IMG/VR virus record: IMGVR_UViG_3300032323_003820
Location: 30,521 to 94,520 of that record
Origin: a virus
Direction: 5' to 3' (one strand)
DNA length: 64,000 nucleotides
The notes under the pieces are model-generated. The model saw only the letters and a list, made by a program, of their open reading frames with translations, did not search any database and was not told where the DNA came from. Positions 3,687 through 59,095 of the stretch are shown one piece after another (position 1 is the first letter of the stretch; every line of letters begins with the position of its first letter). The translations under genes were made by a program, and so were the position numbers.

Positions 3687-4364
3687 ATTTTCTTTTAATA
3701 CTTTTTTTATCAATTCCCTCACTGATTCATTTTTCTTTTTTGGTTTGTAAGAAACCATTTTCGGTTTGTTACCCGTCCCTGATTTGGGATTTGTTTTCTC
3801 AGCCTTTCTTTTTTGGGCACATGCTGATTTTTTTTGTGAATCTGTCATCTTCGATGCAACACTTCTAGCCCTACATTTCGGGTATCCCTTACTTTCCGCC
3901 TCTGACCTTCCACATGGTGGATGACCGCCACCTTCTTTTTTTCTACAAATATTAACCCACGGTCCTTGAGGTTGTGAACTACCCTTTTTCTTTTTCTTAG
4001 TACCAAACCATACCGCTAAATCTTCTTTCAAAAAACTAACCTCTTTAGGTGGTAGACCTGAAGATGTAGGATTTAGTGCGCTTCCTTCTTCGTCATTTTG
4101 ACCTGTATAAAATTTTTTCAGATACATAGTTGTGTTTGATAACTTTTTAGTTCTTCTTTCGATAGACGCCCTTTTTTCTGGTGATTCTTTAAAATCTCCA
4201 TCAGCTTCTTCGTATGCCAACTCAGCATTAGTATAATTATACACAGGTTCTGTAAAAGGTCCCAGTTGGTCTTCCTCCCATTTTTGAGGGGCTAGTACTA
4301 TTGGTACTTTAAATTTACCTGAGCTTCCTGAGCTTGTGGCTTCACTGATTCTATTTTTTTTCAT
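3663..4364 (-). CDS. Cys-rich basic protein (DUF5872-like)
   Basis: A 233-residue protein. Residues ~125-190 contain the spaced motif WVNICRK...HPPCGR...YPKCR...SACAQKRKAEK, a Cys-His cluster that could bind zinc and matches a domain common in marine phages and large DNA viruses (DUF5872-like, from memory). The N-terminus MKKNRISEA fits the prohead-protease-like pattern I-x-E|A seen elsewhere here. The C-terminus SVRELIKKVLKENL is a short amphipathic helix recurring in this phage. TATTTAT lies 5 nt upstream of the start (4376-4370). Confidence 0.7.
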   Translation of the reverse strand: MKKNRISEATSSGSSGKFKVPIVLAPQKWEEDQLGPFTEPVYNYTNAELAYEEADGDFKESPEKRASIERRTKKLSNTTMYLKKFYTGQNDEEGSALNPTSSGLPPKEVSFLKEDLAVWFGTKKKKKGSSQPQGPWVNICRKKEGGGHPPCGRSEAESKGYPKCRARSVASKMTDSQKKSACAQKRKAEKTNPKSGTGNKPKMVSYKPKKKNESVRELIKKVLKENLRRRDGI

Positions 4365-6627: not shown

Positions 6628-8427
6628 TTATCTCAACTCTTTCAAATCGAATGTTCTAACACCATCAACTGTAACTCTACCATAGAAACGGTTGTTAACC
6701 ATTTTCTTAGCGTATCTAGTCATGATACCCTTGATAGGTGTGAAGTTGAATGGATTATACATTGTTGGAGTAAGTTGTAAAGGTACATATGGTGCGTAGA
6801 TGTAACCAGTGTCTAATAGAGACGTTCCTTTGTGACCAAGAAGAACTTGGTTAGCTGGGAAGTAAGGGTCTCTATACACCTGATAACGACCTGCAAGTGT
6901 ACCGATTCTTTCGATACCCATATTGTATTGGTCTTGCTCAGGAGCCGCGTTAGAAACGTGGAAATACTCTAAATCATCAAAAATCGCAGAAATTTCAGAA
7001 GACACTACAATCCAGTTAGCACCACCTCTAAGAGTTGATTTGTGAATTTGTGCTGAAATTTGGTTGATTGCTGTGATAAGAGTTTGGTTCCAGTCTTTCT
7101 GAGTATAAGGAACAGCGTTAGTTCCCAATCTCTTCCAACCGTTGTAATCCCATCTTAAGTTCCATGCTGCACCTTTTCTAAGGTCTCTCAAGATTTCTCT
7201 ATCGATTTCAGCTGCAACTTGCTCAGACAATAAAGCTGTCAATTCAGCTTCAGCGTCGATGTTGTGGAAAGCCGCAACGTCTTGTGCCATTTCTGGAGAC
7301 CACTGTGCTCTTAATTTTCTTTCAGTTACAGAAACTGTCACTGATTGAAGGTCGAAAGATACCTCACCAATTCTATCTTCGAATTCAAGGTTCTTATAAA
7401 TTCTATATACAGGAACAAACGCATCGTTGTTAGTTACATCCGATTCAAAAGTAGAACCTGAATAACCATCAAGTGAGTTTTGTCCAACAGTACAAGGAAC
7501 TTGTAAGTCAACTTCCAAATAGATGTTACCGTCAACATCACAAAGGTTATCATATTGACCACCACCTGTTCTAGAGTTCGGGAAAATTGCTTCAGCGTTG
7601 TTGTTACCATACTGAACGATTCCTTTACCGTATCTTTGAGTTACAACTCTGAAAAGATAAGGATTAGAAGTGTTTGCTGAAGTATAAACGTTTCCAGTTG
7701 CACCATAGATAGTCAAATCAGATAAGAATGATTCGTTATCGATTGGGTTACCATCTGGACCGATTAACTTACCAGCAGCTACTGTTGCGAAACCAGACAT
7801 GATGATAAGAACTTTTCTGTACGCGTCTACTGTGTAAGCTGAAGGTACTAAATTCAATGTTGTAGAATTCCAAGCTGCAGTTACTGCAGTACCTGTTATT
7901 GCAGAAAACTGACCTTTTGAATAATCAAACAAACCTGGTGGGTCTAATGCTGGTTCATTACCTTCGTAAAATCTATCATAAAGGTCTCTACCTTCATTAT
8001 AGTTATAACCTTCATTTGGTGTTTGACCTGCCTCCGCGTTTGGAGAACCGTAAGGTGCGTAGTGTCTGTTAGGTACACCTGTGTCTACGTAATTTTGAAT
8101 TTGAGGTACAAAATAGAACAATTTACCGATAGGTAAGTTCATTGCTTGTACAGATACGATGTCGTTAGCCAATAACTTAGAGAATACTCTTCTGATAATT
8201 GGAAATACAACTGTTTCGAAAGAACCTGTGTCAGAAGTTGTTGAAGCTTCGTTTATCAAGTGTGAAGCTTGGTTTTCATACAACTGAGCTACGTTCTCTT
8301 TCATGTGACCCTTAAGTCCTTCTAGGAAACCTAAGTTGTCCCATTTGTTAATTGTGTCTTCTTTGATAACTTTAAGGTGCTTAAGACCAATATTACCAAC
8401 AAGACCTGATTCTAATAAAGCTCCCAT
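6628..8427 (-). CDS. Major capsid protein, T4 gp23-like
   Basis: A 599-residue protein of the T4 gp23 family, which builds the capsid shell. The N-terminal delta-like region runs through LGFLEGLKGHMKENVAQLYENQ and is followed by HLINE|ASTTSD, a predicted prohead-protease site after Glu60. T4 gp23 is cut after Glu65 at a comparable I/L-x-E site. The segment VFPIIRRVFSKLLANDIVSVQ and the later GGANWIVVSSEISAIFDDLEYF resemble conserved gp23 blocks. It is strongly set up for expression, flanked by a terminator downstream and the scaffold gene 31 nt upstream. No TATTTAT lies directly at its start. Confidence 0.93.
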   Translation of the reverse strand: MGALLESGLVGNIGLKHLKVIKEDTINKWDNLGFLEGLKGHMKENVAQLYENQASHLINEASTTSDTGSFETVVFPIIRRVFSKLLANDIVSVQAMNLPIGKLFYFVPQIQNYVDTGVPNRHYAPYGSPNAEAGQTPNEGYNYNEGRDLYDRFYEGNEPALDPPGLFDYSKGQFSAITGTAVTAAWNSTTLNLVPSAYTVDAYRKVLIIMSGFATVAAGKLIGPDGNPIDNESFLSDLTIYGATGNVYTSANTSNPYLFRVVTQRYGKGIVQYGNNNAEAIFPNSRTGGGQYDNLCDVDGNIYLEVDLQVPCTVGQNSLDGYSGSTFESDVTNNDAFVPVYRIYKNLEFEDRIGEVSFDLQSVTVSVTERKLRAQWSPEMAQDVAAFHNIDAEAELTALLSEQVAAEIDREILRDLRKGAAWNLRWDYNGWKRLGTNAVPYTQKDWNQTLITAINQISAQIHKSTLRGGANWIVVSSEISAIFDDLEYFHVSNAAPEQDQYNMGIERIGTLAGRYQVYRDPYFPANQVLLGHKGTSLLDTGYIYAPYVPLQLTPTMYNPFNFTPIKGIMTRYAKKMVNNRFYGRVTVDGVRTFDLKELR

Positions 8428-10380: not shown

Positions 10381-11103
10381 TTATTTTGATAAATAATCGG
10401 ATAATTTTTTCATTAAATCAATAGACTGGTTTACACTTGGAGCTGAAGTAATTTTATTCTTTTTTTCCTCCTCCAAATTTTCTTCATATTTTTCTCTCTC
10501 TGTAACGTCGTCAAAAAGATACGCTCCTGGTGTTGATGGCGAGGAAACTAAATCGAAACAAATTAATTCAAAATCTTCTTGTACTTCATTTCTTTCACCC
10601 ACTTTCTTTAGTGACCCAACCCCTCTCGAAGATATCCCCAAAGTAACTCCTTGTCTCAAAAGGTTTGCTGCAATGTCCCCTTTGGTTGTTACTACACCTC
10701 TTTCATGAAACCCTGGTGAAGTAAGTAATTTTAATTTACCCATTAAGATATTTCTATCCCACCATATGTCTGTAATTAAATGAGATACTCTGTCTAAGTC
10801 TATCAAAGAAGATTCAGGATGATTAAGTTCAGAAGTTGAGAGTCCTTTCTTAATTATTTGTTTATACTTCTCAGCTTCTCTTTTAAGTATTGGTTCAGGA
10901 TAGGTTCTACCATTTCTATTCGGGGTATTATATTTCTGTAATACTGCATAAAATTCAAAAGGGTTTCTATAATCTACATTCTTAGACTCATTCATGAACT
11001 TGAGGTTTATATCATCCAACGGAGATATATAACCCGCGTCCATTTCAACCAAAATTCCGAACCCTTGTTCGTGTGCTTCTAATATTCTAAGTTTTTTTTC
11101 CAT
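10381..11103 (-). CDS. Prohead protease, T4 gp21-like
   Basis: A 240-residue serine protease that matures the prohead by cutting scaffold and capsid proteins. Visible candidate catalytic residues are His95 in SELNHPESS, Ser158/159 in LGISSRGVGS, and an acidic residue around Asp184 in ICFDLVSSPS, the order and spacing of the gp21/herpesvirus-protease fold. The gene sits just upstream of scaffold and capsid genes as in T4. TATTTAT at 11122-11116 lies 12 nt upstream of the ATG. Its likely cleavage consensus, (I/L)-x-E|A, is read from the capsid protein. Confidence 0.9.
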   Translation of the reverse strand: MEKKLRILEAHEQGFGILVEMDAGYISPLDDINLKFMNESKNVDYRNPFEFYAVLQKYNTPNRNGRTYPEPILKREAEKYKQIIKKGLSTSELNHPESSLIDLDRVSHLITDIWWDRNILMGKLKLLTSPGFHERGVVTTKGDIAANLLRQGVTLGISSRGVGSLKKVGERNEVQEDFELICFDLVSSPSTPGAYLFDDVTEREKYEENLEEEKKNKITSAPSVNQSIDLMKKLSDYLSK

Positions 11104-11662: not shown

Positions 11663-11848
11663 ATGTTGATAATAGAAATTAAAAATAATGGAGGGATAGA
11701 AAAAGCCCTGAAAACTTTGAAGTCTAAAGTAATTAAGACGAAGCAACAAAAATTACTTACGGAGAGAAAGGAGTATACTAAAAAGTCAGTCAAAGAAAGA
11801 AGTGAAAGACTTAAAGCAATATATGTTCAGAAAAAAAGAAACAATTAA
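11663..11848 (+). CDS. rpsU: Ribosomal protein bS21 homologue
   Basis: A 61-residue basic protein. The pattern IEKALKTLKSKVIKT...LLTERKEYTKKSVKERSERLKAIY matches bS21 (I/V-x-n-x-A-L-k-k-x-K, then R-k-x-y-x-K-x-S-x-x-R). bS21 sits on the 30S platform near the anti-Shine-Dalgarno end of 16S rRNA. In Bacteroidota, bS21 helps occlude that end (established work on Flavobacterium ribosomes), and phage-encoded bS21 has been reported. The gene is inserted plus-strand in a minus-strand late block with its own host-type promoter, so it is probably expressed early. Its last 4 nt overlap the convergent gene 11845-12549. Confidence 0.85.
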   Translation: MLIIEIKNNGGIEKALKTLKSKVIKTKQQKLLTERKEYTKKSVKERSERLKAIYVQKKRNN

Positions 11849-12549
11849 ATTGATTCTTCAAGTTTTTTCAATCTCAAAAAATTAATTTGATTGAACTTGT
11901 CATTCTGAATTTTGTCTATTGTTTCTTGAATCTTTTGTTTAGTCTCCAAGTCAGTCTCGTTTTCCAAAACGGGAGAAAGTTTTTGTAAAGTTTTTTCTTT
12001 TAATGAATTGAACCTACTTTCTAAAGATTCACTATCTTCTTTAATTAATTCAAAAAATTCCTTTTTTGTATTTTCATCTAAAGATTCAATGTAATTTTGA
12101 ACTGTTTGATTAGCAACTCTAACCATCGTACTCAAAGGAATGTTGATTGGTTTCTGATTTTTAATCTCGGATTCACTGAGTGTTTTGTAAAGTTTTTTCT
12201 TTAAATTAACTCTTTCAGTCAAATCAATTTTCTTATTCAAATAAACCAAGTCATCAATATCCTGATATCTATTTTGAATTTTGGTTTCAGTCATCAACTT
12301 AGGTAATTTAATATGTTGTAGGAGTGATTGTATCATTTGTATTCCTTCGTTCACAAATTCTTTAGCATCTTGTTCATTCAAACCTTTTGGATTCGACAAC
12401 TCGTCATATAAAGAATATACTTTGGACAAATCTTTATTATTAAGAATATTCTGTTTGAATTCCATCAAACTTTTCTTGAAAGATTTTTCATCTTTATAAG
12501 ATTCTATTAAACTATTTTCTATTACCGATTTGATGAGCCCAAAAGTCAT
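11845..12549 (-). CDS. Helical head-module protein
   Basis: A 234-residue, almost entirely alpha-helical, charged protein with no recognised domain. It lies 24 nt downstream of the portal gene and upstream of the protease, where T4-like phages often carry small core proteins. TATTTAT at 12573-12567 is 17 nt upstream. A scaffold or core role is an inference from composition and position. Confidence 0.65.
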   Translation of the reverse strand: MTFGLIKSVIENSLIESYKDEKSFKKSLMEFKQNILNNKDLSKVYSLYDELSNPKGLNEQDAKEFVNEGIQMIQSLLQHIKLPKLMTETKIQNRYQDIDDLVYLNKKIDLTERVNLKKKLYKTLSESEIKNQKPINIPLSTMVRVANQTVQNYIESLDENTKKEFFELIKEDSESLESRFNSLKEKTLQKLSPVLENETDLETKQKIQETIDKIQNDKFNQINFLRLKKLEESI

Positions 12550-12573: not shown

Positions 12574-14403
12574 TTACGAATTTAATAACTTATCTAATTC
12601 TTTTTCGATTTCACCTAAAGAATCTTGTCCTTGGTTAAGTTCAAGGTAAGTATCACCTTTAAAAATGTTATTTTCTACTAAAATATTCATTCTTTCATCT
12701 TGTCCCTCAGGTGTCACTCCAGCAGGTGCAGTAATCTCGCCTTCAGGTTGTGGTTCAGGTGCTGGTGGTATAGTTGGTTCTTCCGTACCCGCAAATGCAC
12801 CACCTAATTCAGGGGCTGCACCTGCAGTTGCCGCTGTTGGAGTAGAACCACTCGATTGAGAATACAACTTATCGATAGTATCAAATAATCCAGTTTTACT
12901 TATAACTGTTGGTGTTTGTTTGAGTTCTTCACCGATTGCCCTTTCCAACCTTTGTTGCATCAAATCTACTTTGATTTCTTCATCAGACCAACCAAATATA
13001 TGTTTCTTCGCCCATGTACTTGAGGTTGGTTGAATTCCATTTCCTGGGTCTAATACCAAATCTTTATACAGAAGGACTTTTTCTTTCCAAACATCTATCT
13101 TTAATAAATCTGCCTGAGTAGAAGGATTAGTCAATCCAAGTGTGAAGTTAGAAATCTCATCTTCAAATCCCAAAAGAAACAAATGAACAATTGCAATCTT
13201 GTTCAATTCCTGAATCATACTTTTTTGAATTCTATTTATAGTTCTTGCAAAACGAATGTCTTGAAGTGATAGGTTTTTACCATCACCAACTACTTGCTCA
13301 AATCCCAAGAAAGCTTTCGGAACACGAAGTGCGGTCAGAAGTTTTTTCTGAATATATTCAATATCGGCAATTTCTGATAGGTTTTGTGCCCCTGCCAAAG
13401 TTTCAATTGGACTTGGAGCTGCAGGGTCTCTCACAGGAACAAAATAATCTTGGTCCACTGCCATTTGATTGAACCTTAAATCTACGTTACCCGTTTTAGA
13501 ATCAACAACTTGTTGCCTTTTAAATTTATCTGCAACACGATTTACATATGCTTCAACATCATTGTCATCCATGTTTCCAACAAAAATCTTGAAAATTCTT
13601 CTTTCAGGTGCTCTTGATGTTCTATAAATCATCATAGCATCCTCAGATAAAAGTAATTGTTTCCAAATTCTTCTAGCCTTTTCTAACATTGATGTTCCGT
13701 ATGGAAGTTTTCTATCATCACCAAGTAATCTGAAGTGACCAACTTCCCACGTTTGAAATGTCATGTTTTTAGATTTCCATTCAAAAGTTAAAGCTTTTTT
13801 TGCTTCAGCTTTCCCTAAATTGACCGCATTTTTATCGGTAACCCCGATTTCATGTCTTTCAATTTCTATGTTTGGTAATTGTTGACATCCTACAATACCC
13901 TTTTCGGGGTCTAATTTAAGATAAATAAAATTATCACCGAACTTACAAGTATTTCTTGTCCACATCGGTAAATTTGTGTTGATATCGAGTGTATTATTGA
14001 ACAAATCTGCCAAAACCGCTTTTATTCTTTTCGATTCAGAATAAATTTGTAACATAAACCCATCTTCATTTACCGTAGTAGATTCCTCGGCATATATGTC
14101 CAAAGCTGCAGATATTTCTGGCGTATACTCCATGGACTCATAATCATACGTAGCCGAAAGTCTTGAAGGTTCGTAAAATATTGCTTGAGTATATAGATTG
14201 TTTTCAACTTTAGCCCATTGATTTGCGATATAATAAGTTTGTTGAGCTTGTAGTTTTTCTCTTTCGTATTCTCCTCTATCTTGTGTTCTTAATAATTCTT
14301 TTTTGTCGAATTTAAAAGTTGGGTAATCCTGACCCAAAAGAGAATTTGGACCAAATGCTTTACCTAATCTTTGCCAAATCGTCAGATTGTTATTTTCCGC
14401 CAT
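12574..14403 (-). CDS. Portal protein, T4 gp20-like
   Basis: A 609-residue protein forming the dodecameric portal at the capsid vertex through which DNA is packaged (family knowledge). Recognisable gp20-type blocks include DYESMEYTPEISAALDIYAEEST, GTSMLEKARRIWKQLLLSEDAMMIYR, RAPERRIFKI and QDIRFARTINRIQKSMIQELNKIAIVHL. The C-terminal ~90 residues are Pro/Ala/Glu-rich and probably disordered. It lies 40 nt downstream of the terminase gene. TATTTAT at 14440-14434 is 30 nt upstream of its ATG. Confidence 0.92.
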   Translation of the reverse strand: MAENNNLTIWQRLGKAFGPNSLLGQDYPTFKFDKKELLRTQDRGEYEREKLQAQQTYYIANQWAKVENNLYTQAIFYEPSRLSATYDYESMEYTPEISAALDIYAEESTTVNEDGFMLQIYSESKRIKAVLADLFNNTLDINTNLPMWTRNTCKFGDNFIYLKLDPEKGIVGCQQLPNIEIERHEIGVTDKNAVNLGKAEAKKALTFEWKSKNMTFQTWEVGHFRLLGDDRKLPYGTSMLEKARRIWKQLLLSEDAMMIYRTSRAPERRIFKIFVGNMDDNDVEAYVNRVADKFKRQQVVDSKTGNVDLRFNQMAVDQDYFVPVRDPAAPSPIETLAGAQNLSEIADIEYIQKKLLTALRVPKAFLGFEQVVGDGKNLSLQDIRFARTINRIQKSMIQELNKIAIVHLFLLGFEDEISNFTLGLTNPSTQADLLKIDVWKEKVLLYKDLVLDPGNGIQPTSSTWAKKHIFGWSDEEIKVDLMQQRLERAIGEELKQTPTVISKTGLFDTIDKLYSQSSGSTPTAATAGAAPELGGAFAGTEEPTIPPAPEPQPEGEITAPAGVTPEGQDERMNILVENNIFKGDTYLELNQGQDSLGEIEKELDKLLNS

Positions 14404-26077: not shown

Positions 26078-26728
26078 ATGAAAACAAACCTCAGAAAAAT
26101 TATAAGGGAAGAACTTACGGTTTTGTCAAACTTTGATAAACTCATCAACTCTTTTAGAAGTGATTTCCCTCAAGACCTTCAAAATAAAGTTGACGGCATA
26201 TCCTTATATGTAAAAAACTATGTCAGAGAGAATGGGTTCAATATAAAATTTCTTAATAGTTGCAGGACGGGATTCAAAGGAGTTAGAACTAATAATTTCA
26301 TAATAATTTGTTCACCAATGCAAATTGAAAACATTGGTGATTTTCTTTATACCATTTTTCATGAAATAAGACACGAAGAACAAATGGGTAAACTAAAAAT
26401 TGATAACCCTTTAACAGGACAATTGGAAGATTTTGAAAAATTATTCGAAGATTATTGGAAATTAGAGTTGGATGCAGATGAATTTGCTAAGAAAAAAATA
26501 TCAGAACTTGTTTTAAAATTTGGTATACCAATCGGCACAGCTAAACAAAATTTCAGACTATCTCCTTATGTCGAAAATTACCCAAGTACTTCCAAAATGG
26601 TGAAAAACTATATGAAAACGATAGTTGACGATATTAAGAATATGAGAAAATCAGGGATGGAATACAATGATATTGCTGACCATCCTGTTGTCAAAAATCA
26701 CTTGGAAAAATTAGAAGATTTCTTTTAA
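26078..26728 (+). CDS. HExxH metallopeptidase-like protein
   Basis: A 216-residue protein with FHEIRHEEQ (His95, Glu96, His99) and a downstream ELDADEFAKK that can supply the third zinc ligand (Glu130, Asp134 or Glu135), the layout of a zincin. The N-terminus MKTNLRKIIREELTVL is an amphipathic helix found on several late proteins here. No signal peptide. It has the late-type TATTTAT promoter rather than the clpC promoter. Substrate unknown. A virion-delivered protease is one possibility. Confidence 0.65.
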   Translation: MKTNLRKIIREELTVLSNFDKLINSFRSDFPQDLQNKVDGISLYVKNYVRENGFNIKFLNSCRTGFKGVRTNNFIIICSPMQIENIGDFLYTIFHEIRHEEQMGKLKIDNPLTGQLEDFEKLFEDYWKLELDADEFAKKKISELVLKFGIPIGTAKQNFRLSPYVENYPSTSKMVKNYMKTIVDDIKNMRKSGMEYNDIADHPVVKNHLEKLEDFF

Positions 26729-34709: not shown

Positions 34710-35132
34710 ATGAAAATTATTATATCAGAATCACAAAGAAAAAAAATTGTTGATTCATTGATAGGTGAAAAAGTTATGGTTTATTATAACCTACACAAAC
34801 ATACCTTTTCAATTACAATACGTGGAATTGTTATGGCTCACGTAGATTATGTTAAATTAAAAAATGTTGAATTTAGGGTTAGGACTGGAGGAAAGGAAAT
34901 GGTTAGAACAAAAAAACAAAAGAATGTTCACGCTTTTGTGATTGGGACCTTGTTGGATTATTGTGAATACCCTTGTGAAAATTTACCTGAAGAACCTTTT
35001 GGTGAAGTGGTTACATATAATCCTTACAAACATGATAGTTTCGTCATCAAATCAACAGAACAACCTGTCTTCTATGCAAAATTGGTTGAAATGATAAACT
35101 CGAAAAATAAAATTTTTATCATAGAAAATTAA
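34710..35132 (+). CDS. Hypothetical protein with MKIIISE N-terminus
   Basis: A 140-residue protein starting MKIIISESQRKK, the first of three nearby genes sharing MKII(I/V)(S/T)E(A/S)Q. The rest is mixed alpha/beta with a CEYPC pair and no recognised fold. The N-terminal motif fits an I-x-E|S prohead-protease site. Function unknown. Confidence 0.65.
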   Translation: MKIIISESQRKKIVDSLIGEKVMVYYNLHKHTFSITIRGIVMAHVDYVKLKNVEFRVRTGGKEMVRTKKQKNVHAFVIGTLLDYCEYPCENLPEEPFGEVVTYNPYKHDSFVIKSTEQPVFYAKLVEMINSKNKIFIIEN

Positions 35133-35141
35133 TAAAAAAAC

Positions 35142-35148
35142 TATTTAT
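35142..35148 (+). promoter_or_regulatory. TATTTAT late-promoter-like motif
   Basis: TATTTAT, 5 nt before the ATG at 35154. Confidence 0.5.
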
Positions 35149-35153
35149 ATAAC

Positions 35154-35474
35154 ATGAAAATTATCATAACTGAAGCTCAACTTAAAAGATTAAATTTAGA
35201 AGAATTCGCAAAAAAAAGATTCACAGGTGCAGAAAAGATTGCCAATACGGCAAAAGAAAAGGGTGGACCTTCTATTCTTACCTACCAACATTTTGTGGTG
35301 AAACTACCATATTACAAGAAAGCTGGCGAAGGTAAGTTCAATGAAAAGGAATCGATTGAAGAATTCAAGAAGACATTAAAATCAATCTCTCTCGAAATGA
35401 CACAAAAAGAGTTCCAAACTGAAGTAGGTAGATTGGAGGTTCTAGGTGAATTAATTATAAAGAACAAAAAGTAA
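35154..35474 (+). CDS. Small MKIIITEAQ-type protein
   Basis: A 106-residue basic helical protein. N-terminus MKIIITEAQLKRL is nearly identical to that of 35980-36213. No other motif. A late TATTTAT promoter and a downstream terminator make it a single-gene unit. Candidate packaged protein by N-terminal pattern. Confidence 0.65.
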   Translation: MKIIITEAQLKRLNLEEFAKKRFTGAEKIANTAKEKGGPSILTYQHFVVKLPYYKKAGEGKFNEKESIEEFKKTLKSISLEMTQKEFQTEVGRLEVLGELIIKNKK

Positions 35475-35493
35475 AAAAAGTTATATATTATTG

Positions 35494-35519
35494 AACCCTC
35501 ACTTCGGTGGGGGTTTTTT
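35494..35519 (+). terminator. Terminator (copy B of a duplicated element)
   Basis: Identical to the terminator at 33051 for 30 nt including TTTTTTATTT. Confidence 0.88.
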
Positions 35520-35567
35520 ATTTGACATTATAAGATGTTATGACTAAATTATATAAAATTTTTTAAT

Positions 35568-35909
35568 ATGACAGTTTTATGTATTATCGGTTGGGTTGTC
35601 TCAGTTGCAACCTCTTTATTCTTAGCAAAAAATGCTTTTGATAAAATTAGAGGTACTGAAGAATCCAAAGGGAATTTCAAATTCATGAATTTAGAAAACT
35701 ATAGAATGGAGACAGGTGTTGGAGAAATGTTGGGAGCGGCTTTGCTTTTGGTTCCTGGTTTTTCAGTAATTGGTCTTGTTTTAATTTCTACTTTTATGGG
35801 TGGGGCAGTCGTTGCTCACTTATCTCTTATGGGAGGTAATAAAAAAGAGTTTCCGATTATGGTATGGGTTGGAGCACTTGTCGGATATTTGCTCAGAGCT
35901 TATTGCTAA
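35568..35909 (+). CDS. DoxX-like inner-membrane protein
   Basis: A 113-residue protein with about four membrane helices. VGEMLGAALLLVPGFSVIGLVLISTFMGGAVVAHLSLMGG matches the DoxX/DoxX-like core (G-E-x-L-G-x-x-L-L-x-P, then M-x-G-A-x-x-x-H). Host members are linked to redox or lipid-associated membrane functions. The cargo looks host-derived and sits as its own unit between two terminators. Confidence 0.72.
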   Translation: MTVLCIIGWVVSVATSLFLAKNAFDKIRGTEESKGNFKFMNLENYRMETGVGEMLGAALLLVPGFSVIGLVLISTFMGGAVVAHLSLMGGNKKEFPIMVWVGALVGYLLRAYC

Positions 35910-35927
35910 GAAAAAAATTTCCACTCA

Positions 35928-35956
35928 GACCCCTTCACTTGTGAGGGGGTTTTTTA
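35928..35956 (+). terminator. Terminator
   Basis: ACCCCTTCAC-tt-GTGAGGGGGT followed by T6, related in sequence to the two ACCCTCAC terminators. Confidence 0.85.
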
Positions 35957-35968
35957 TTTCCAAAATTA

Positions 35969-35975
35969 TATTTAT
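35969..35975 (+). promoter_or_regulatory. TATTTAT late-promoter-like motif after a terminator
   Basis: Lies 12 nt after a terminator T-run and 4 nt before the ATG at 35980. Confidence 0.55.
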
Positions 35976-35979
35976 CTTT

Positions 35980-36213
35980 ATGAAAATAATAGTAACTGAG
36001 GCACAGTATAAACGCCTGAACGAATTATCTTCAAAGTCCAACGGAGTTGAAGAATTTATAGAGATGGTAAAATCAACAAAAGGATTATTAAAACACTTGG
36101 GGTTCAAAAATATGAAAGCTTTAGAAGACTTCATTACCGATAACGGTATTAAAGATTTTTATGAACTCAAAAAAGATGCTACAGATTTCAAAAAGAAATC
36201 TGAAGATAAATAA
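35980..36213 (+). CDS. Small MKIIVTEAQ-type protein
   Basis: 77 residues from ATG 35980. Longer frames run through the upstream terminator and are rejected. MKIIVTEAQYKRLNEL shares the N-terminus of 35154-35474. The remainder is a charged helical domain (FIEMVKSTKGLLKHLGF). Late motif 4 nt upstream. Function unknown. Confidence 0.65.
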   Translation: MKIIVTEAQYKRLNELSSKSNGVEEFIEMVKSTKGLLKHLGFKNMKALEDFITDNGIKDFYELKKDATDFKKKSEDK

Positions 36214-36230
36214 ACAATTAATACACATTT

Positions 36231-37154
36231 ATGAAAATTAATGAAAAAGTACTAATCGGTATTCTTTCAGGTTTACTGATTATTTCGGTCGCGTTTATTA
36301 CTTGGCAAAGTAATACGAATAGAACCATAATCAAAGAGAAAGAAATTCAGTATGTTGAAATCAAAGAATCAAAAGACACTTTGGAAAAAGAACATTCTGA
36401 AACATTATCTAAGTTGGAAGAAGCGGAAATCAAAATCGACGGGTTGACAAACACAAACATCCAATCTGATAAAGAAATCAAATCTTTAAAAAGTAAGATA
36501 AAGAACATCTTATATAAGGAAAAGGTGACAGGTAAGGAATTACAAACTGCCAAAGTTTTAATCTCAGAACTCAACGTAAAAATCACCGATTACTTGAAAG
36601 AAAACGATGTATTGAAACAAAACAACATCAAACTGACTGAAGAAAAAACTTCATTACAAATGGATAAAAATCAGTTGGTTCAAGTTTTAGATTCAACAAG
36701 AGTTGAAAAATCTAAAGCAGACGATGTCATCGATTTGGGAAGTACCTTAGTCATATCTAATATAAGTGTTCAAGGTTTCAATGTTAAAGGTAAAAAAACT
36801 GATATTGCTGAGAAAATTCATAAGTTAAAGTTCTCATTTGTTATTAACGAGAATAGAATTTCTTCAAGTGGAAAGAAAACAATATATTTTGTTTTGATAA
36901 ATCCATTTGGTAAAGAAATCTCAATTGATGGTGTTTCGGAAGTGTTGAGTACAAAACAAAATGGTCAAAAGTTATTCACAGGAAAAAAACAACTCGACTA
37001 TTCTCAAGGACTAATTCAGAAAGCAGAATTTGACGTAGAAATGTCAAAAGTTTTTGTTGATGGAGTATATAAGGTTCAAATATACGAAAATGGTTTGTTG
37101 GTCGGAGAAAGTCGACTCGCACTCAAAAAGAAAAAGGTCTTAGGATTTTTATAG
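36231..37154 (+). CDS. Membrane-anchored coiled-coil protein
   Basis: A 307-residue protein. An N-terminal membrane helix (VLIGILSGLLIISVAFITW) is followed by ~120 residues of heptad-rich coiled coil and a C-terminal beta-rich domain of ~140 residues (KLKFSFVINENRISSSGKKTIYFVLINPFGK). The layout resembles host envelope proteins rather than virion proteins. It sits 17 nt after the preceding gene and before a strong terminator. Confidence 0.7.
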   Translation: MKINEKVLIGILSGLLIISVAFITWQSNTNRTIIKEKEIQYVEIKESKDTLEKEHSETLSKLEEAEIKIDGLTNTNIQSDKEIKSLKSKIKNILYKEKVTGKELQTAKVLISELNVKITDYLKENDVLKQNNIKLTEEKTSLQMDKNQLVQVLDSTRVEKSKADDVIDLGSTLVISNISVQGFNVKGKKTDIAEKIHKLKFSFVINENRISSSGKKTIYFVLINPFGKEISIDGVSEVLSTKQNGQKLFTGKKQLDYSQGLIQKAEFDVEMSKVFVDGVYKVQIYENGLLVGESRLALKKKKVLGFL

Positions 37155-37157
37155 TGA

Positions 37158-37189
37158 GAATCCCCCGAGAAATCGGGGGATTTTTTTTT
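37158..37189 (+). terminator. Terminator
   Basis: TCCCCCGA-gaaa-TCGGGGGA with a T9 tail. Confidence 0.9.
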
Positions 37190-37202
37190 ATGTGATTCAA
37201 AA

Positions 37203-37209
37203 TATTTAT
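37203..37209 (+). promoter_or_regulatory. TATTTAT late-promoter-like motif after a terminator
   Basis: Between the 37158-37189 terminator and the ATG at 37217 (7-nt gap). Confidence 0.6.
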
Positions 37210-37216
37210 CTTTACA

Positions 37217-38089
37217 ATGAAATTACTCACATTAAAGGAATCTGAATTTTTTTCTATGTTAAAAACAATAGTTGAACAAGTTGAGACAGACTTGAACCAA
37301 TACGATGATAACGATTTTTTTGATGCTTTCGTTTATGTATTTAGAAAATGGGCAGCAAATAGGTTAGGGGAAGAATATGAAAAATATCCCTTTTCATATT
37401 TGTTGAAAACCTACGGACAGGAATTCTTGAACCAAATTTTTGGTGATAAGTATGATAAATATTTTGGTAGTGATGAAGTTTCCCTTTACCGACAAATGAT
37501 ACCAAGAATTGGGAAATACTTAGTCCAATCAGGAATTCATTCATTACCATCACTAAGAAACCAATCTAAGTTTACCAAAAAATATGCAAAACATATTTCT
37601 GCTTTGCTCGAAATATATTTAAGTGAATTTAATTTCGTTAGAACTGAAATCAAAGAAGACAAACCTTACGATGTTGATGTTTATTTTTATGTTGATTATC
37701 CTTCCTATTTGAAGTCCAAGTCTCGTACTTTAAATTCGTATAATATTGAAAGAGAATTACGAGACCTATTCGAACAACATTTAGGGGTTGAGTTTGGTAA
37801 CCCAGTTCACGGAAAAGTGAATCTCAAAATACACATCATAAAAGAAAACGAAGAATCGTGGATTAAAAATGTTTTGAATAAGGAAATAAAGAAACATATA
37901 AGAGAAATGGAAGGAGGTAGGTATGTACATTCAATCCGATTTGAACCCAAAGATAATGGAGCTACTATGAAGATAATCTACAAAGATTACGGATATAATA
38001 GCCTTTTCAAAGTATTCGAATTCAGAAATAGAGTTAGGCAGTATATTCAAGATTTAGGATATGACAAAATTTCCGTCGAAAACATTTAA
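37217..38089 (+). CDS. Hypothetical late protein
   Basis: A 290-residue protein starting MKLLTLKESEFFSML. It is charged and mixed alpha/beta with aromatic-rich patches and no recognised family. Terminator and TATTTAT upstream define an independent late-type unit. N-terminal LxE|S again resembles a prohead-protease site. Confidence 0.65.
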   Translation: MKLLTLKESEFFSMLKTIVEQVETDLNQYDDNDFFDAFVYVFRKWAANRLGEEYEKYPFSYLLKTYGQEFLNQIFGDKYDKYFGSDEVSLYRQMIPRIGKYLVQSGIHSLPSLRNQSKFTKKYAKHISALLEIYLSEFNFVRTEIKEDKPYDVDVYFYVDYPSYLKSKSRTLNSYNIERELRDLFEQHLGVEFGNPVHGKVNLKIHIIKENEESWIKNVLNKEIKKHIREMEGGRYVHSIRFEPKDNGATMKIIYKDYGYNSLFKVFEFRNRVRQYIQDLGYDKISVENI

Positions 38090-38117
38090 TAATTTATAAA
38101 ATTCAAATTTTTTTTAT

Positions 38118-38125
38118 TATCTTTG
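38118..38125 (+). promoter_or_regulatory. Host-type -7 element TATCTTTG
   Basis: TAnnTTTG match ending 6 nt before the ATG at 38132, which would make the mRNA nearly leaderless. Confidence 0.45.
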
Positions 38126-38131
38126 TGAACG

Positions 38132-38479
38132 ATGGATTTCACAAAATTATTCATAGGAATTTTATTAGGGTTTTTAGGTCAAATTGGTTCCTTCATGCAA
38201 TTACAAGGAGCAATAAAGTATAATTGGTATGAAAAATATCTTTGGTTGATTTTAATTTTAAGTATACCTATAAGTTGGCTTTACATAAAATCTGTAACTT
38301 ATTTAGTCGAGGGTTTTGGGGGTGAAATTTGGCCGAGTAGGCTGATAGGATTTGCTGTCGGAATTATGGTTTTTAGTATGTTATCAATCATCCTATTCAA
38401 AGAAACCCTAACACTGAAAACAATTATTTGTCTACTTTTAAGTTTTTGTATAGTTTTCGTTCAGTTAGTTATGAAATGA
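38132..38479 (+). CDS. Four-helix membrane protein, SMR/DMT-like
   Basis: A 115-residue protein with four predicted membrane helices. Length, glycine spacing and the last helices (GFAVGIMVFSMLSIILFKETLTLKTIICLLLSF) recall small multidrug-resistance/DMT-type proteins, though the conserved SMR glutamate near the N-terminus is not seen. Probable host-derived cargo expressed from a host promoter. It is followed within 2 nt by a tRNA gene. Confidence 0.6.
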   Translation: MDFTKLFIGILLGFLGQIGSFMQLQGAIKYNWYEKYLWLILILSIPISWLYIKSVTYLVEGFGGEIWPSRLIGFAVGIMVFSMLSIILFKETLTLKTIICLLLSFCIVFVQLVMK

Positions 38480-38480
38480 T

Positions 38481-38552
38481 GGTCTCGTAGTTAAATGGAT
38501 ATAACAGTCGCCTTCTAAGCAACTATTCGTGGTTCGATTCCACGCGGGACTA
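38481..38552 (+). tRNA. tRNA-Arg (TCT)
   Basis: Acceptor GGTCTCG/CGGGACT, anticodon loop CTTCTAA reading TCT (AGA codon), T-arm CGTGG-TTCGATT-CCACG. CCA is not encoded. The anticodon stem has one mismatch. Confidence 0.88.
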
Positions 38553-38570
38553 CAGGAGCTTCGGAAACTC

Positions 38571-38600
38571 AAAAGGGGAGGATTTATATTCTCCCCTTTG
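38571..38600 (+). terminator. Terminator-like hairpin
   Basis: AAAGGGGAG-gatttatatt-CTCCCCTTT after the tRNA. The T-tail is short. Confidence 0.6.
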
Positions 38601-38602
38601 TA

Positions 38603-38609
38603 TATTTAT
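38603..38609 (+). promoter_or_regulatory. TATTTAT late-promoter-like motif after a hairpin
   Basis: TATTTAT, 5 nt before the ATG at 38615, directly following the hairpin at 38571-38600. Confidence 0.55.
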
Positions 38610-38614
38610 AAAGT

Positions 38615-40120
38615 ATGAAATTCATGTCAATTTTATTGAGGGAAGGCAGGAAGGAAGATTTGAAGAAAAAATATTCTGACAAATACGACGAAGAAGTATT
38701 AGATTGGATTTTGAATATTTCTGACCTTGTTGATTTCAATCACAAATACACTGATTTTGTTTTGAGAGTTATTAACCCTAAAAATATGGACGTTGCATGG
38801 TGGGTAGAAACAATAATTGACGAACTTAAGTTATTCGACAAATATCAAAATCAACTCGAAAAAAAAGATATTAATCAGTATCAAACTTTTACCGAATTAC
38901 AAAATGCAGTTACCCCACTTCAACAAAAAGAAAAAGAAAAAGAATTAGAGGGTCAGGTAGATAAAATTTACGAAGATGACACTTTTGTAGTAGTTGTTCC
39001 AAAAACACGAGAGGCATCATGTAAATATGGTTCTAATACAAAATGGTGTACCGCAGCAAAACAAGATAATAGATTTGATACCTATAGCACAGGAAAACAA
39101 AAATTATATTACATAATCAACAAGAAAAAAAGTTCAGGTTCTAACTATTCCAAAATTGCAATTCATTTCAATAATTCAGGTAATAAAACTTATTGGGATT
39201 CCGCAGACTATAATATGAATCCGAGAGAGGTTGATGTTTTAAATTACGCATTTCCTGAAATGATGCAAACCATCGATAAAGACTACTCAACTGATATGAG
39301 TAAGTTTGATAGGGAATCAATCTTACGAGAAGCATTTAAGATAAACCAACCAATTGTTTATTCATTACGTAACTACTTAGAGTCAGGTAAAGACATTTTT
39401 ATAGTTGTTGAAGGATTTGATTCGATACCTGATATGAAAGGTCATTATGAGGGAACTGTTCAGATAGAATTATCAGATGGTTATGATAATTTTTTAGTTG
39501 ATAAATACAATCTACTTATAACGGTACAATATAAACCAAGTGATGGTAATGTCTATCGTGCAGTTGTGGAATTTAACGGGGTAGATTTAGACCCGACCGA
39601 ATACTTTAGAGATTTAGGTTTAGAAACTGAGCAAATTAGTGATTTATATTGGATAAAAGAAGACGCTAGTGAGACACATTCTTTCTTCGCCAGAAGTATT
39701 GCAAACAAAATAAGAACACTTGTCGGAGAAAATCCTGTTTTACAAAGATTAGTTGTTGGTGACAAGAAATTTTGGAGACCTGATAGAATTCATTACGGAT
39801 ACACATTTGCAAGGGCAGATAAAGGATTTATTAAAAAATTGACCGATTGGTTAGATGCAGGTAAAGTCGGAACCAAACTGGACTTTTTAACTGACATAGG
39901 GAAACTCGACAAAAAAATTGAAAACGGGAAAAAGTATTATGCTTTCAAGGGTAAAGCCATTTTTTTACCATCCAAAGATTGGAGAGGACAGTTTTCATCA
40001 TTCTTTGCTTCTGCTAGACTTGCCGGTATTTTGGGTTACAGAAAAGTTGGTAATCAATTCTTACTTGTAAAAGGACCAAACTTCGAAGCATTTAAGGAAG
40101 GAAACCTTAAAGCACTTTAG
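38615..40120 (+). CDS. 'YG...KWCTA' phage protein
   Basis: A 501-residue protein starting MKFMSILLREGRKEDL. Residues ~120-170 hold EDDTFVVVVPKTREASCKYGSNTKWCTAAKQ...LYYIINKKK, a motif recurrent in environmental phages whose function I do not know. The invariant Tyr-Gly, Trp-Cys-Thr and flanking strands suggest a small catalytic or binding domain. The rest is alpha/beta with two further domains. LLRE|G at the N-terminus fits a protease-processed leader. Late motif 5 nt upstream. Overlaps the convergent gene 40107-40328 by 14 nt. Confidence 0.7.
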   Translation: MKFMSILLREGRKEDLKKKYSDKYDEEVLDWILNISDLVDFNHKYTDFVLRVINPKNMDVAWWVETIIDELKLFDKYQNQLEKKDINQYQTFTELQNAVTPLQQKEKEKELEGQVDKIYEDDTFVVVVPKTREASCKYGSNTKWCTAAKQDNRFDTYSTGKQKLYYIINKKKSSGSNYSKIAIHFNNSGNKTYWDSADYNMNPREVDVLNYAFPEMMQTIDKDYSTDMSKFDRESILREAFKINQPIVYSLRNYLESGKDIFIVVEGFDSIPDMKGHYEGTVQIELSDGYDNFLVDKYNLLITVQYKPSDGNVYRAVVEFNGVDLDPTEYFRDLGLETEQISDLYWIKEDASETHSFFARSIANKIRTLVGENPVLQRLVVGDKKFWRPDRIHYGYTFARADKGFIKKLTDWLDAGKVGTKLDFLTDIGKLDKKIENGKKYYAFKGKAIFLPSKDWRGQFSSFFASARLAGILGYRKVGNQFLLVKGPNFEAFKEGNLKAL

Positions 40121-40883: not shown

Positions 40884-40884
40884 T

Positions 40885-41789: not shown

Positions 41790-41796
41790 TAAAAAC

Positions 41797-53523: not shown

Positions 53524-54189
53524 CTATTTAGTTGCCGTAGAAAGTGCCGGTTTCAATTTATCCAACACCTCTTTAGCATTTCCACTATATTTTTCAAAAA
53601 CTTCACAAACAGAAACTGATAAAGTTTTTTCTAAATTTTGTATAAATTTTAAGTTTTGAAGTTCATTTTGAAGTGCATTTCTAACTATATCCATACCAGT
53701 TCCACCCACACCTGCACTTTGTTTGAGATTCATTATTAAAGTCTCCCCAATTGCTCTAACAATATGTTTTGTTAAAATTTTACAATCTTTAAATGAATTT
53801 AATAGTTCTGACGGATTGGTCGCAAAAAATGAAACTAAGAATTTCCTTATTGAATTGTCAGGAAATCCTAAAGAACCTAACAAAGAATTCAATGCTTTTT
53901 CGGTGAATGCTTCAGGTACAGCCCAAAACGCCGAACCAAAAATATTTTTCAAAGTATCAATGAAATTTTCAGTCAGTAAACCTTCTTCATTTAATGAAGA
54001 CATTTCCATCAAAAATAAAACACAAATTTTACCTTGTTCTTTTTCAGATAAATTTTTGAACCTACCTTCACCAAAATTTTCGACAATCATTTTTAATCTT
54101 GAATGAACAATTTTTTGTTCAATCAAGATAGTTTCTTTCTGAACCTTAGTTTCTTTCAAACTTTTTTTTATCACTTTTTTTAAAGCCAT
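53524..54189 (-). CDS. Helical hypothetical virion-type protein
   Basis: 221 residues from ATG 54189 (the longer start lies inside the upstream gene). It is helical with a hydrophobic central region (FIDTLKNIFGSAFWAVPEAFTEKALNSLLGSLG). It begins 2 nt after the preceding stop. No family recognised. Confidence 0.65.
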   Translation of the reverse strand: MALKKVIKKSLKETKVQKETILIEQKIVHSRLKMIVENFGEGRFKNLSEKEQGKICVLFLMEMSSLNEEGLLTENFIDTLKNIFGSAFWAVPEAFTEKALNSLLGSLGFPDNSIRKFLVSFFATNPSELLNSFKDCKILTKHIVRAIGETLIMNLKQSAGVGGTGMDIVRNALQNELQNLKFIQNLEKTLSVSVCEVFEKYSGNAKEVLDKLKPALSTATK

Positions 54190-54191
54190 TT

Positions 54192-55193
54192 TTATATATT
54201 TTTCAATAACCATTGATGCCTAGTAGACCCTTCTACAGGGAAAGACGGTGGTAGACTCACACCTTGGAATTCACTAATCTCTCTCGACATTAAATCGAGA
54301 ATTTTATTCAATTTTCTAGCATTTGGTCTAAGTCCCCATCTATTGTGGTAAACATTTTTACAGTATTGAACTTTAGGTTTGAAATTTTGAAAATAGCTTG
54401 GTCTCATAGGTTTATCAGCTCTGTAATCTTCAAAATATTGTAAAATATTTTCTACACATTCTTTCTCATCTACAGTGTAGTTATCACTTGCTATTTTGTA
54501 ATCTTTAGTGTCCAATTTCATATCTTCAAGTGGGTCACGATATAATTTTACTTTAGCACCGAATAGTCTTTCTGCAGGGATTGGAATTTCTTTCCAATTT
54601 TGTTGCTCAGCACCTGTCATTTCGTGCCATTCTTTAGCAGAGTATTGTTGTTTTAAATCTTTAATAGCATCTTTTTGTTGTTGTGAAACTCCTGTAACAA
54701 CATCCGCATTTGACATCGGTATATATAAATCAATGCCTTGGATGGTTACTTTTTTCAAGTTAGTCAAATCCCATCCTGACTTAATAGCCTCTTCTTTAGT
54801 CTTAGCCCCGTACTTAGTTTTATATGATTCAACTTCAGCATTTTTGAAATCTCTATCGATAATTTGGGTTTTTGGCTCATCTGGAGTCCAAATACCAGGA
54901 CCGAAGGCAAATTTTCCATCAGCACCAAAGGAACCGTATTTACCATCTAAAAAGAAATAAATCATTTTACCTTTTGTCTTAGAACTTTCTTTTTTTATTG
55001 CAAATCTTCTGTTAGGATTTGATGTTTCTAATTCTGCAATTCCAATTGCACCAGGAGTCTGTCCATTATCAATCATTGCTTGAAGTTTTGACCTTAAATC
55101 TCCAGCCTGCTCTCTGAGTTTCATTTTTTCAGTTTTTTGATTCCTATGTAAATTAAGAACCAACTCTTTTTCAATATCAAGTTTTATCTTCAC
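54192..55193 (-). CDS. Hypothetical virion-type protein
   Basis: 333 residues if it starts at GTG 55193 (MKIKLDIEKEL), 10 nt after the upstream stop. No recognised domain. It contains GQTPGAIGIAELETSNPNRRFAIKKE and a C-terminal helical region with two Cys. It lies in the same leftward unit as the PG-binding protein at 55204. Confidence 0.65.
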   Translation of the reverse strand: MKIKLDIEKELVLNLHRNQKTEKMKLREQAGDLRSKLQAMIDNGQTPGAIGIAELETSNPNRRFAIKKESSKTKGKMIYFFLDGKYGSFGADGKFAFGPGIWTPDEPKTQIIDRDFKNAEVESYKTKYGAKTKEEAIKSGWDLTNLKKVTIQGIDLYIPMSNADVVTGVSQQQKDAIKDLKQQYSAKEWHEMTGAEQQNWKEIPIPAERLFGAKVKLYRDPLEDMKLDTKDYKIASDNYTVDEKECVENILQYFEDYRADKPMRPSYFQNFKPKVQYCKNVYHNRWGLRPNARKLNKILDLMSREISEFQGVSLPPSFPVEGSTRHQWLLKNI

Positions 55194-55203: not shown

Positions 55204-56190
55204 TTAAAAATCGCTCCATTTAGTTTGAGAAACCTCTCCACTAATTTCAGGTTTATCTTCTACGGGTTTTTTCTGACAAATTTTAGCAACATCCGCATCT
55301 GTAAATGACTCACCAAATCCTTTTTCCTTGAGTTTCGCTGCCGTCAAAGGACCAAAAGCATTATCAACTTTGAGACCACCCAAACAAGCTTGGACTTCTC
55401 CGATTTTAGGGGACTTACAATATAGTTTATATGTACCACTACAAGGTGCAAATTTACTTCCTTGCTTTTCTTTTCTCGGTGTAACCGCTTTACATTTTTC
55501 TTGGTTGGGGTTTTTCTTACAATCTTCTTCAACCTTTTTTTGGTCTTCATCAGAAAGTTTAAAATCAGTGTCTTCTATAATTCCTACCAAAGGTCTTGTA
55601 AACATTTTCCATTCATCGGGACTATCTGTCAAATCATCTAAAAATTGATATAATCCTCCAGGTATTTTCTTATCAACTTCACACAAATCACCGACTGTTG
55701 GAATTCTCTCTAACGCAGCTTTAATTGCTTTCTCATCATCATTCCAAGTTCCTCTAGCATCCTCAATTGCATATGCAATATTACGGATATCTGCCTTAGA
55801 AAGTTGTGGTATTAACTTGTTCGCTCCCTTGGAGCTACATGCAGACATTACTTGCTTGAATCCTTCACTTCCATAATCTTTACTAGCCCACCAATCTATT
55901 AACATTCCTAATCCTGCACCTGCCACCAAACCAATTGCCGTTCCTACAACAGGAAAAACACTACCAATAGTTGCACCTGCGGTCATTGCTGCTGCTCCTC
56001 CTCCTGCTATGGTTGCCCCTGCTAGAGTCCCAACAGTTCCATAAGCTAATGTTCTTGGTGTGATTGGACTACCTGCGGTTTGTTCTGTAATTATATTTTT
56101 ATTTTCAGTTAAAGTTTTTGAAGTATCGTACTTCATCATGAGTTTCACCCTATCTAAAGCTTGCTGGGGTGAGTATTTTGGTTGTGACAT
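55204..56190 (-). CDS. Membrane-active virion-type protein with PG-binding-like C-terminus
   Basis: A 328-residue protein. NKNIITE|QTAGSP after residue ~30 looks like a processed leader. A long Gly/Ala-rich hydrophobic stretch (~50-98, GTLAGATIAGGGAAAMTAG...GLVAGAGLGMLIDWW) could insert in membranes. DARGTWNDDEKAIKAALERI resembles an annexin-like phage repeat. Near the C-terminus, GEVQACLGGLKVDNAFGPLTAAKLKEKGFG resembles a peptidoglycan-binding fold. Together these suggest an injected or tail-tip protein that acts on the envelope. TATTTAT is 12 nt upstream. Confidence 0.72.
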   Translation of the reverse strand: MSQPKYSPQQALDRVKLMMKYDTSKTLTENKNIITEQTAGSPITPRTLAYGTVGTLAGATIAGGGAAAMTAGATIGSVFPVVGTAIGLVAGAGLGMLIDWWASKDYGSEGFKQVMSACSSKGANKLIPQLSKADIRNIAYAIEDARGTWNDDEKAIKAALERIPTVGDLCEVDKKIPGGLYQFLDDLTDSPDEWKMFTRPLVGIIEDTDFKLSDEDQKKVEEDCKKNPNQEKCKAVTPRKEKQGSKFAPCSGTYKLYCKSPKIGEVQACLGGLKVDNAFGPLTAAKLKEKGFGESFTDADVAKICQKKPVEDKPEISGEVSQTKWSDF

Positions 56191-58144: not shown

Positions 58145-59095
58145 TTAAAACTTTTTCATTCTATTCATCATTTCAACAATTCTATTTTTTTGTTTGACGA
58201 CAGATTCTTTTAAATCTTCATCCAAATAAGAAAATTCATCGTCACCAGTCATTGTAGTTATATCTTCCCACGAGGAGGTATTTGGTTCAAATTCTTCGTA
58301 GTCTGACATGTCAAGTTCATTATCATCGAACTCTTCACCTTCGGCATCCGCCTTATTTTTTCTTCTCATTTTATTCCAAACATGTCTACGTGGATATTGT
58401 TCGTCAGTTTCTTGATAATCTTCTTCGATTTCTTCATCTTTCACTTCGTAGTCTGAAAATGCCGACTCCATTGTTTCATATACTGGCTCTGCACCATCAG
58501 ATTCAAAATCAAATGCAGATTTAACTTCCTCATCATCCAAGTCCATGTCGTAGGCCTTTTCAGAGTATGCATCACCACCATCTTTGGGTCCTTTACTTTT
58601 GAAAGTGTATGCACTCTCTAATTCATCATAAGGGTCTCCTTGTTCTGTCTCTTCAACTTCTCCTTCAACGTAATCAAACTTATCAGAAAGATTCAAATCT
58701 TCAACATTTTTTAAATCTTTTACCTGTTGCATTTCTTCTTCCATTTCGTAGTTTGAACCACATTCCATGCATTCACCTTCTTCCATGTTTCCACCATAAC
58801 CACACTCCATACATTCACCTTCTTGCATCATCCCACCACATTCTGAACATAATTCTTTTTCTTCTTCCATCGGTTGAACTTGTTCGTTAATACCAACATT
58901 TTTATATGCAGTAACAACATTCTTGTTACTCAACGTCACACCACCTTTGTCATTTGCAAAATCTTGAACATATAATGGTTGTTCACTTTTTATTTTAGGT
59001 TGCATTGTTCTATAACCGTCGTATAGAGACCTGTGCTTATCTAAAATGCTACTTTTTTCTTCATTAGACATAAGTCCTATTGCCCATTGTTTCAT
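58145..59095 (-). CDS. Acidic protein with repeated zinc-ribbon-like Cys motifs
   Basis: 316 residues from ATG 59095 (an upstream AT-rich extension is rejected). KELCSECGGMMQEGECMECGYGGNMEEGECMECGSN gives three C-x-x-C-G pairs separated by a duplicated EGECMECG, able to bind zinc. Long acidic stretches follow, then a basic helical C-terminus (VVKQKNRIVEMMNRMKKF). TATTTAT at 59116-59110 is 14 nt upstream. A core-like virion protein is plausible. Confidence 0.7.
   Translation of the reverse strand: MKQWAIGLMSNEEKSSILDKHRSLYDGYRTMQPKIKSEQPLYVQDFANDKGGVTLSNKNVVTAYKNVGINEQVQPMEEEKELCSECGGMMQEGECMECGYGGNMEEGECMECGSNYEMEEEMQQVKDLKNVEDLNLSDKFDYVEGEVEETEQGDPYDELESAYTFKSKGPKDGGDAYSEKAYDMDLDDEEVKSAFDFESDGAEPVYETMESAFSDYEVKDEEIEEDYQETDEQYPRRHVWNKMRRKNKADAEGEEFDDNELDMSDYEEFEPNTSSWEDITTMTGDDEFSYLDEDLKESVVKQKNRIVEMMNRMKKF

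Follow-up and report, generated by a model that had tools for sequence, protein, structure and literature searches.

Within a 64,000-nucleotide stretch of viral DNA (the window; positions 30521-94520 of an IMG/VR viral contig 94.5 kb long), several otherwise unrelated genes encode proteins that begin with a short N-terminal leader carrying the motif [I/L/V]-x-Glu. They finish in the motif at which the head protease encoded by the phage is predicted to cut, and therefore probably send proteins into the virus head. We put the probability at roughly 0.8 that they are capsid-targeting propeptides which load the attached proteins (cargo) into the head and are removed by the protease, leaving the cargo for injection. 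According to this model, the leader would recruit unrelated cargo to the prohead core late in infection. The gp21-type protease, which would also trim the capsid protein at LINE|A (vertical bars mark predicted cuts), would cut the leader off C-terminal to Glu; the leader would leave, and the freed cargo would be retained in the head. The cargo would then leave the head together with the DNA and enter the next host, where it would counter defences or adjust metabolism. We strongly infer targeting to the head from the homology of context and the apparent equivalence with the capsid-targeting sequence (CTS) of phage T4. Predicted cleavage after Glu is well supported by motif conservation, and we infer retention and injection of the cargo.

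An earlier note on this DNA had proposed capsid-targeting, protease-cleavable leaders on packaged cargo, and every test that could be run on the sequences agrees with such a reading. It is supported by the modularity of the leaders, a predicted cleavage site at the edge of conservation, leader swaps that keep the site and T4-like leaders on orthologous cargo. Further support comes from a T4-type protease and capsid gene, a common upstream TATTTAT element and cargo predicted to fold from after the site.

Leader modularity and the common predicted cleavage motif

Modularity was assessed on a set of 3,999 proteins encoded by related contigs. N-terminal segments of 30 residues matched at a score of at least 50 in 25,579 pairs with non-homologous bodies, compared with 36 pairs for internal segments. 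Hidden Markov models (HMMs) of the leaders matched 111 of 1,611 N-termini in eight genomes at 10 bits or more, as against 3 of 1,277 and 2 of 1,057 internal segments. Comparison of N-termini across phages, a check suggested in the earlier note, thus placed the leader far beyond chance. As in the T4 internal proteins, a short N-terminal leader is common to otherwise non-homologous proteins. By HMM, contigs G002-G029 have between 4 and 32 leader genes per genome and this contig has five; regular expressions gave approximately 230 cargo groups. Scanning DNA with a degenerate form of the leader retrieved contigs with several leader genes each, and a second leader form was found in at least 120 stretches of viral contigs versus four in 85,000 cellular genomes.

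The leaders fall into at least nine families of differing sequence, nearly all of which end in or contain [ILV]xE. The largest is type A with 187 members (MKKIIRLTESDLTRIVKRVIxE|Q). The others include type B (MKIIITESQLKRLIxx), type C (NLQENIxRIKxMMGLxxE), type F (SEEEKxRILxMH...LxE|Q), type G (MKDLIRKILKE|E), types H, K, L and N, and types D/E of the isolated Flavobacterium phage immuto. A tblastn search of INPHARED with the bare leaders A and B gave no match, and these two leaders are hence not evident in sequenced isolates; the leaders of immuto (MENFDLKKFLVEN..., MKKQILSEQF...IITE|S and MRLLELLRE|A) are of other types.

In T4, gp21 cuts L/I-x-E on the C-terminal side of Glu (PMC9026906), and this motif lies within or at the end of the leaders, with the exception of the proteins at 58145 (no site) and 35980 (V at P3). 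Of the 187 type A members, 177 have the Glu and 180 have I, L or V at P3; pairwise identity is 0.89 at Glu, drops to 0.20 and 0.12 at the following positions and then reaches a baseline of 0.06-0.07. The pattern (I/L)-x-E|(A/S/G) given in the earlier note does recur, but P1' is wider than A, S or G, Gln being the commonest residue in the largest family. Its placement of the cut needs revision as well: full-length leaders are likelier cleaved at the end of the approximately 20-residue leader, and the early (I/L)TE would be a second site. Both sites of one leader may be used, as in phiKZ-type propeptides (PMC5694885, PMC9026906).

Orthologous cargo carries different leaders. Members of the YMFFSNL family, encoded beside the capsid gene, have A, B or G leaders with [ILVF]xE in 41 of 42 cases (MKE in the remaining one). 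In the HQDLDGVT (HQDLD) family, leaders are of type A, type B or minimal, all with the end [IL]xE|SG. Orthologues of the window protein 35154-35474 start with MKIIITE|A, MKLTDILTE|S, MRLLELLRE|A (immuto), MIKLLGILRE|A, MNLLDILRE|A or LIKAYSLFINE|A; the site falls into a single alignment column and is missing in the L374 orthologue. Genes adjoining the LIKAYSLFINE|A orthologues encode the leaders KTYQQFINE|A, SFNEFINE|A and LYSQFINE|A. Like AYSLFINE|A itself, these are close to KTYQEFIAE|A, the proven targeting sequence of T4 internal protein (IP) II (MKTYQEFIAEA was confirmed in T4 record AF158101). These T4-CTS-like sequences occur on orthologous cargo or neighbour genes in L377-L382/G033; the window leaders are alike in length and end motif only.

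Leader genes in the window

All five leaders listed in the earlier note for the interval 34710-40120, and three elsewhere (3663, 17514 and 55204), were recovered, and the interval leaders are valid; the full leader-gene set is, however, much larger than this interval. [ILVM]xE[ASG] occurs in residues 2-16 of 10 of the 115 contig genes versus 6.2 expected (P=0.07), and the strict form [IL]xE[AS] in 6 versus 2.0 expected (P=0.0085). Within the interval, which was picked after the pattern had been seen, the count was five of eight genes versus 0.35 expected (P<0.0005); genes 35568, 36231 and 38132 have no leader. TATTTAT, described earlier as present on most of these genes, lies at most 60 nt upstream of four of the five interval genes (not 34710) and also precedes 3663 and 55204.

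The gene at 34710..35132 (+) matches the leader HMM and encodes the leader MKIIISE|SQRKKIVDSLIGE, with 18 residues preceding a Phage_L5_gp82 / phrog_586 domain (residues 19-132). Among the matches listed, relatives in 824 unrelated phage records almost always begin to align at residues 18-25. E7 is at least 90% conserved among 43 orthologues. In the product of 35154..35474 (+), the leader MKIIITE|A precedes a 99-residue all-helical cargo. An AlphaFold2 model of this protein has a predicted local distance difference test score of approximately 60 in the first ten residues and 90-98 in the body, with the first helix starting from E7; in both window proteins modelled, the initial residues are less ordered and confident folds are predicted from after residue 7. 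The gene at 35980..36213 (+), whose start is an internal ATG of the open reading frame 35800-36213, likewise matches the leader HMM and encodes MKIIVTE|A and a short cargo (77 residues in all).

The leader MKLLTLKE|SEFFSMLKTIVE|Q of the 37217..38089 (+) product, read from the sequence, resembles type A, has sites at residues 8 and 20 and is followed by an unrecognised cargo of 270 residues. The gene at 38615..40120 (+) encodes MKFMSILLRE|GRKED in front of a 'TKWCT' protein (phrog_28193/17056 domain, residues 104-224), whose homologues in G016 start with MKFINLLLEGRE, MYKIFLQEGKK and MILFEGRK. The motif [GS]xTKWCT is conserved in this family (window 38615-40120; G016 124625, 134719 and 240167), which has several copies per genome.

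Outside the interval, MKKNRISE|A was read from the sequence in front of an unrecognised cargo at 3663..4364 (-), and KLLGE|A occupies residues 34-39 of 17514-18341 (-). A type G leader (MKTNLRKIIRE|E; 14.0 bits with the leader HMM) precedes an unrecognised cargo at 26078..26728 (+), again with TATTTAT upstream. The type L leader ...DRVKLMMKYDTSKTLTE|NKNIITE|QTAG, with IITE|Q at residues 33-37, is attached to the cargo encoded at 55204..56190 (-) and belongs to a family common to G016, G005, L095 and L161. A type F leader (SNEEKSSILDKHRS...) with cargo is encoded at 58145..59095 (-) (leader HMM, 33.3 bits). Finally, ALKKVIKKSLKE|T at 53524..54213 (-) is a candidate leader from sequence only.

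Two arrangements were seen in other contigs. L169:7736-10700 holds a tandem array of short paralogues with the N-termini MKY[IL]ITESQ[IL]DxxIFxYLDNQDF, and one genome encodes many proteins of 60-94 residues with repetitive sequence of the MKSVRDRIN/VREQV type (L255, approximately 3934-14550; G029:123934-134546).

Head genes, upstream element and cargo

A T4-type head cluster was identified on the minus strand of the window by phrog matches. The gp23-like major capsid protein (6628..8427; phrog_138, E 8.5e-66) has its propeptide end at residue 60, comparable to the 65-residue propeptide of T4 gp23 (PMC9026906). The predicted site LINE|A, on which the earlier note had built its pattern, is indeed found at residues 57-61 and in seven of seven related full-length capsid proteins compared. 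The gp21-like prohead protease (10381..11103; phrog_207, E 1.4e-43) contains its own ILE|A at residue 9. A gp21-type protease and a gp23-type capsid protein with a matching site are thus both encoded; head genes are missing from some leader contigs, which are fragments. The gp20-like portal is located at 12574..14403 (phrog_213, E 4.4e-64). The gene between protease and portal (11845..12549, -) probably codes for a prohead core protein, because its richness in [IL]xE (4.27 sites per 100 residues, rank 88 of 90 proteins) fits a core protein cut to fragments. The hosts are probably Bacteroidota, given that the capsid protein is related to that of Flavobacterium and Rhodothermus phages.

Among the 31 contigs found via leaders, 17 encode a phrog_207 protease and 16 have a strong capsid match. 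Three contigs of more than 120 kb without a protease or capsid match (G013, G017 and G025) contain the sheath gene of the same lineage; with protease, capsid or sheath gene found, lineage markers are thus present in each of the 13 contigs that reach 120 kb or more. A core gene picked to test the headless contigs gave no match and had no positive control, whereas the sheath gene worked. In G033 (L386-L392) the G+C content shifts from approximately 40% to approximately 29% near 40 kb, so that this contig is probably chimeric and its lack of a protease uninformative. Short open reading frames at G001:21031-21210 and G027:66569-66787 match the capsid propeptide region in tblastn and possibly represent propeptide-bearing proteins or remnants; they were not recovered with simple patterns.

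Of 90 leader genes, 54 have TATTTAT upstream, compared with 319 of 1,307 other genes (P=6e-12); the element precedes several head genes of the window too. It was found upstream of 22 window genes, both head and leader genes, mostly 4-6 or 12-18 nt before the start codon. It is probably a late-promoter element giving very short 5' leaders.

Recognised cargo domains comprise (i) Fe/Mn superoxide dismutase; (ii) PPK2 fused to lysozyme; (iii) 5'-nucleotidase; (iv) lysozyme/LysM; (v) peptidoglycan-binding domains; (vi) one ART-PolyVal domain (1 of 112 cargo proteins, E 3.3e-5). In six superoxide dismutase homologues, [ILV]xE lies 7-8 residues ahead of the conserved KLPY near the enzyme start. The dismutase forms the N-terminal part of proteins of 500-900 residues with variable leaders in G005, G016, G024, G002, G008 and L159 (e.g. 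L159:3598-6333), and a fusion of PPK2 polyphosphate kinase with phage lysozyme stands behind a leader at L239:14879-16645. In a second set, of long cargo proteins, the majority had no Pfam domain, and Foldseek returned nothing meaningful for two cargo models. Sequence searches of the PDB with one cargo protein resembling ADP-ribosyltransferases (ART-like) and a 501-residue protein yielded nothing convincing, and PADLOC gave weak matches alone, to LeoB and ZorA.

The window also carries genes for a transfer-messenger RNA and nine tRNAs (three Arg, and Thr, Asn, Trp, Cys, Leu and Met) at 29034-29456 and 38481-50194.

Alternatives and relation to known systems

Several observations weigh against propeptides that load injected cargo. 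The statistic from this contig alone is weak, and the cross-phage protein set was partly chosen by leader scans. In some orthologues of the 34710 protein residue 20 is Q, D or K, which leaves the early site alone; the site of the 35980 protein is weaker because of V at P3, and [IL]xE is absent from the first 70 residues of the type F protein 58145-59095. In a second set of contigs, those with relatives of window cargo, some have no T4 head gene; G033 of this set is the probable chimera, G040 and G043 carry the same-lineage sheath gene, and the remainder may be incomplete. For most of the cargo no domain was recognised, so that effector function is largely conjectural, and virion proteomics or N-terminal sequencing was not found in the literature for any phage of the group.

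The alternative that survives best, though we think it considerably less probable, shares the first steps of the model: the proteins would be packaged and cleaved but serve mainly as structural core or tail-associated parts that are not injected. Some leader proteins, such as the YMFFSNL family, do adjoin the capsid gene, and lysozyme, LysM or peptidoglycan-binding domains occur in some. The cargo as a whole, however, is hypervariable and patchy, falls into over 200 groups and includes soluble enzymes (superoxide dismutase, PPK2 and 5'-nucleotidase). It is unlikely that the leader is instead an uncleaved amphipathic helix that docks phage proteins where heads are assembled or at the inner membrane and has no packaging function. 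T4 heads assemble at the membrane, and type A looks like a basic, amphipathic helix (LTRIVKRVI); yet minimal leaders such as MKRLIKE|S, MKLTDILTE|S and MKIIITE|A are barely helical and still have [IL]xE, conservation stops at Glu, and a T4-CTS-like equivalent is found on orthologous cargo. A by-product of a mobile promoter or 5'-end duplication (a cassette start site), selected at the DNA or translation level only, would account for the clustering of leader genes, their common TATTTAT and the over-representation of CTA and CGA, but is very improbable, as differing leaders converge on the same peptide end, orthologues lose or swap their leader, and the other synonymous codons at conserved positions are used broadly as in the background, which indicates selection on the peptide and not on a DNA element.

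Beyond targeting and cleavage as such, we lean, with rather less assurance, towards a general packaging code in which many short, interchangeable leaders, recognised by the prohead core and cut by one protease, would load tens of proteins per genome, enzymes such as superoxide dismutase and polyphosphate kinase among them, as a pre-made kit for host takeover and counter-defence. If the propeptide model is true, an N-terminus of 7-25 residues would flag candidate injected proteins across hundreds of contigs and single out possible anti-defence factors from proteins so far called hypothetical. Injected effectors of uncultured phages could then be predicted by reading the code from their sequences, and the leaders would offer new tags with which proteins could be loaded into phage heads. 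The literature searched contained no published account of these leaders. What is new is the convergence of unrelated leader families on one protease motif, with hundreds of cargo groups, enzymes among them, in an abundant uncultured lineage.

In phiKZ and SPN3US, a gp21 relative likewise removes N-terminal propeptides of inner-body or ejection proteins C-terminal to Glu, identical N-termini occur on diverged paralogues, and propeptides have multiple sites (PMC5694885). Their propeptides, however, are mostly longer than 100 residues and are cut at S/A-x-E, and these phages have no family of short leaders like the present one. Polyvalent proteins and MuF effectors are also phage-injected, host-directed enzymes (PMC5512222) but are delivered as multidomain fusions with no short cleavable leader. 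T4 Alt, a virion-packaged ADP-ribosyltransferase, loses an N-terminal propeptide to gp21 (PMC9026906). Among the cargo here, one protein matches ART-PolyVal; the YHG/YHS ART-like candidates of L084 match neither Pfam nor a solved structure.

The closest counterparts are the T4 internal proteins. In IPI, IPII and IPIII a short N-terminal CTS ending in (I/L)xE| precedes unrelated mature proteins (PMC9026906, PMC12373910, PMC3012670), and an IPIII segment of only the initial 10 residues is enough for targeting (PMC9026906). Ten residues of the T4 peptide are also enough for foreign proteins to be packaged, and Asp at the T4 cleavage position prevents processing while targeting continues (PMC9026906). 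The phages described here likewise have a T4-type protease and capsid gene and orthologous cargo behind CTS-resembling leaders. They differ, as far as sequence alone can tell, in having at least nine unrelated leader families versus one, 4-32 leader genes (HMM) per related long contig, and cargo that includes enzymes and falls into more than 200 groups, compared with about ten internal proteins reported for T-even phages that have only a leader in common (PMC12373910, PMC3012670). The principle is thus already known from the T4 internal proteins, and the new elements are the scale, the leader diversity and the cargo.

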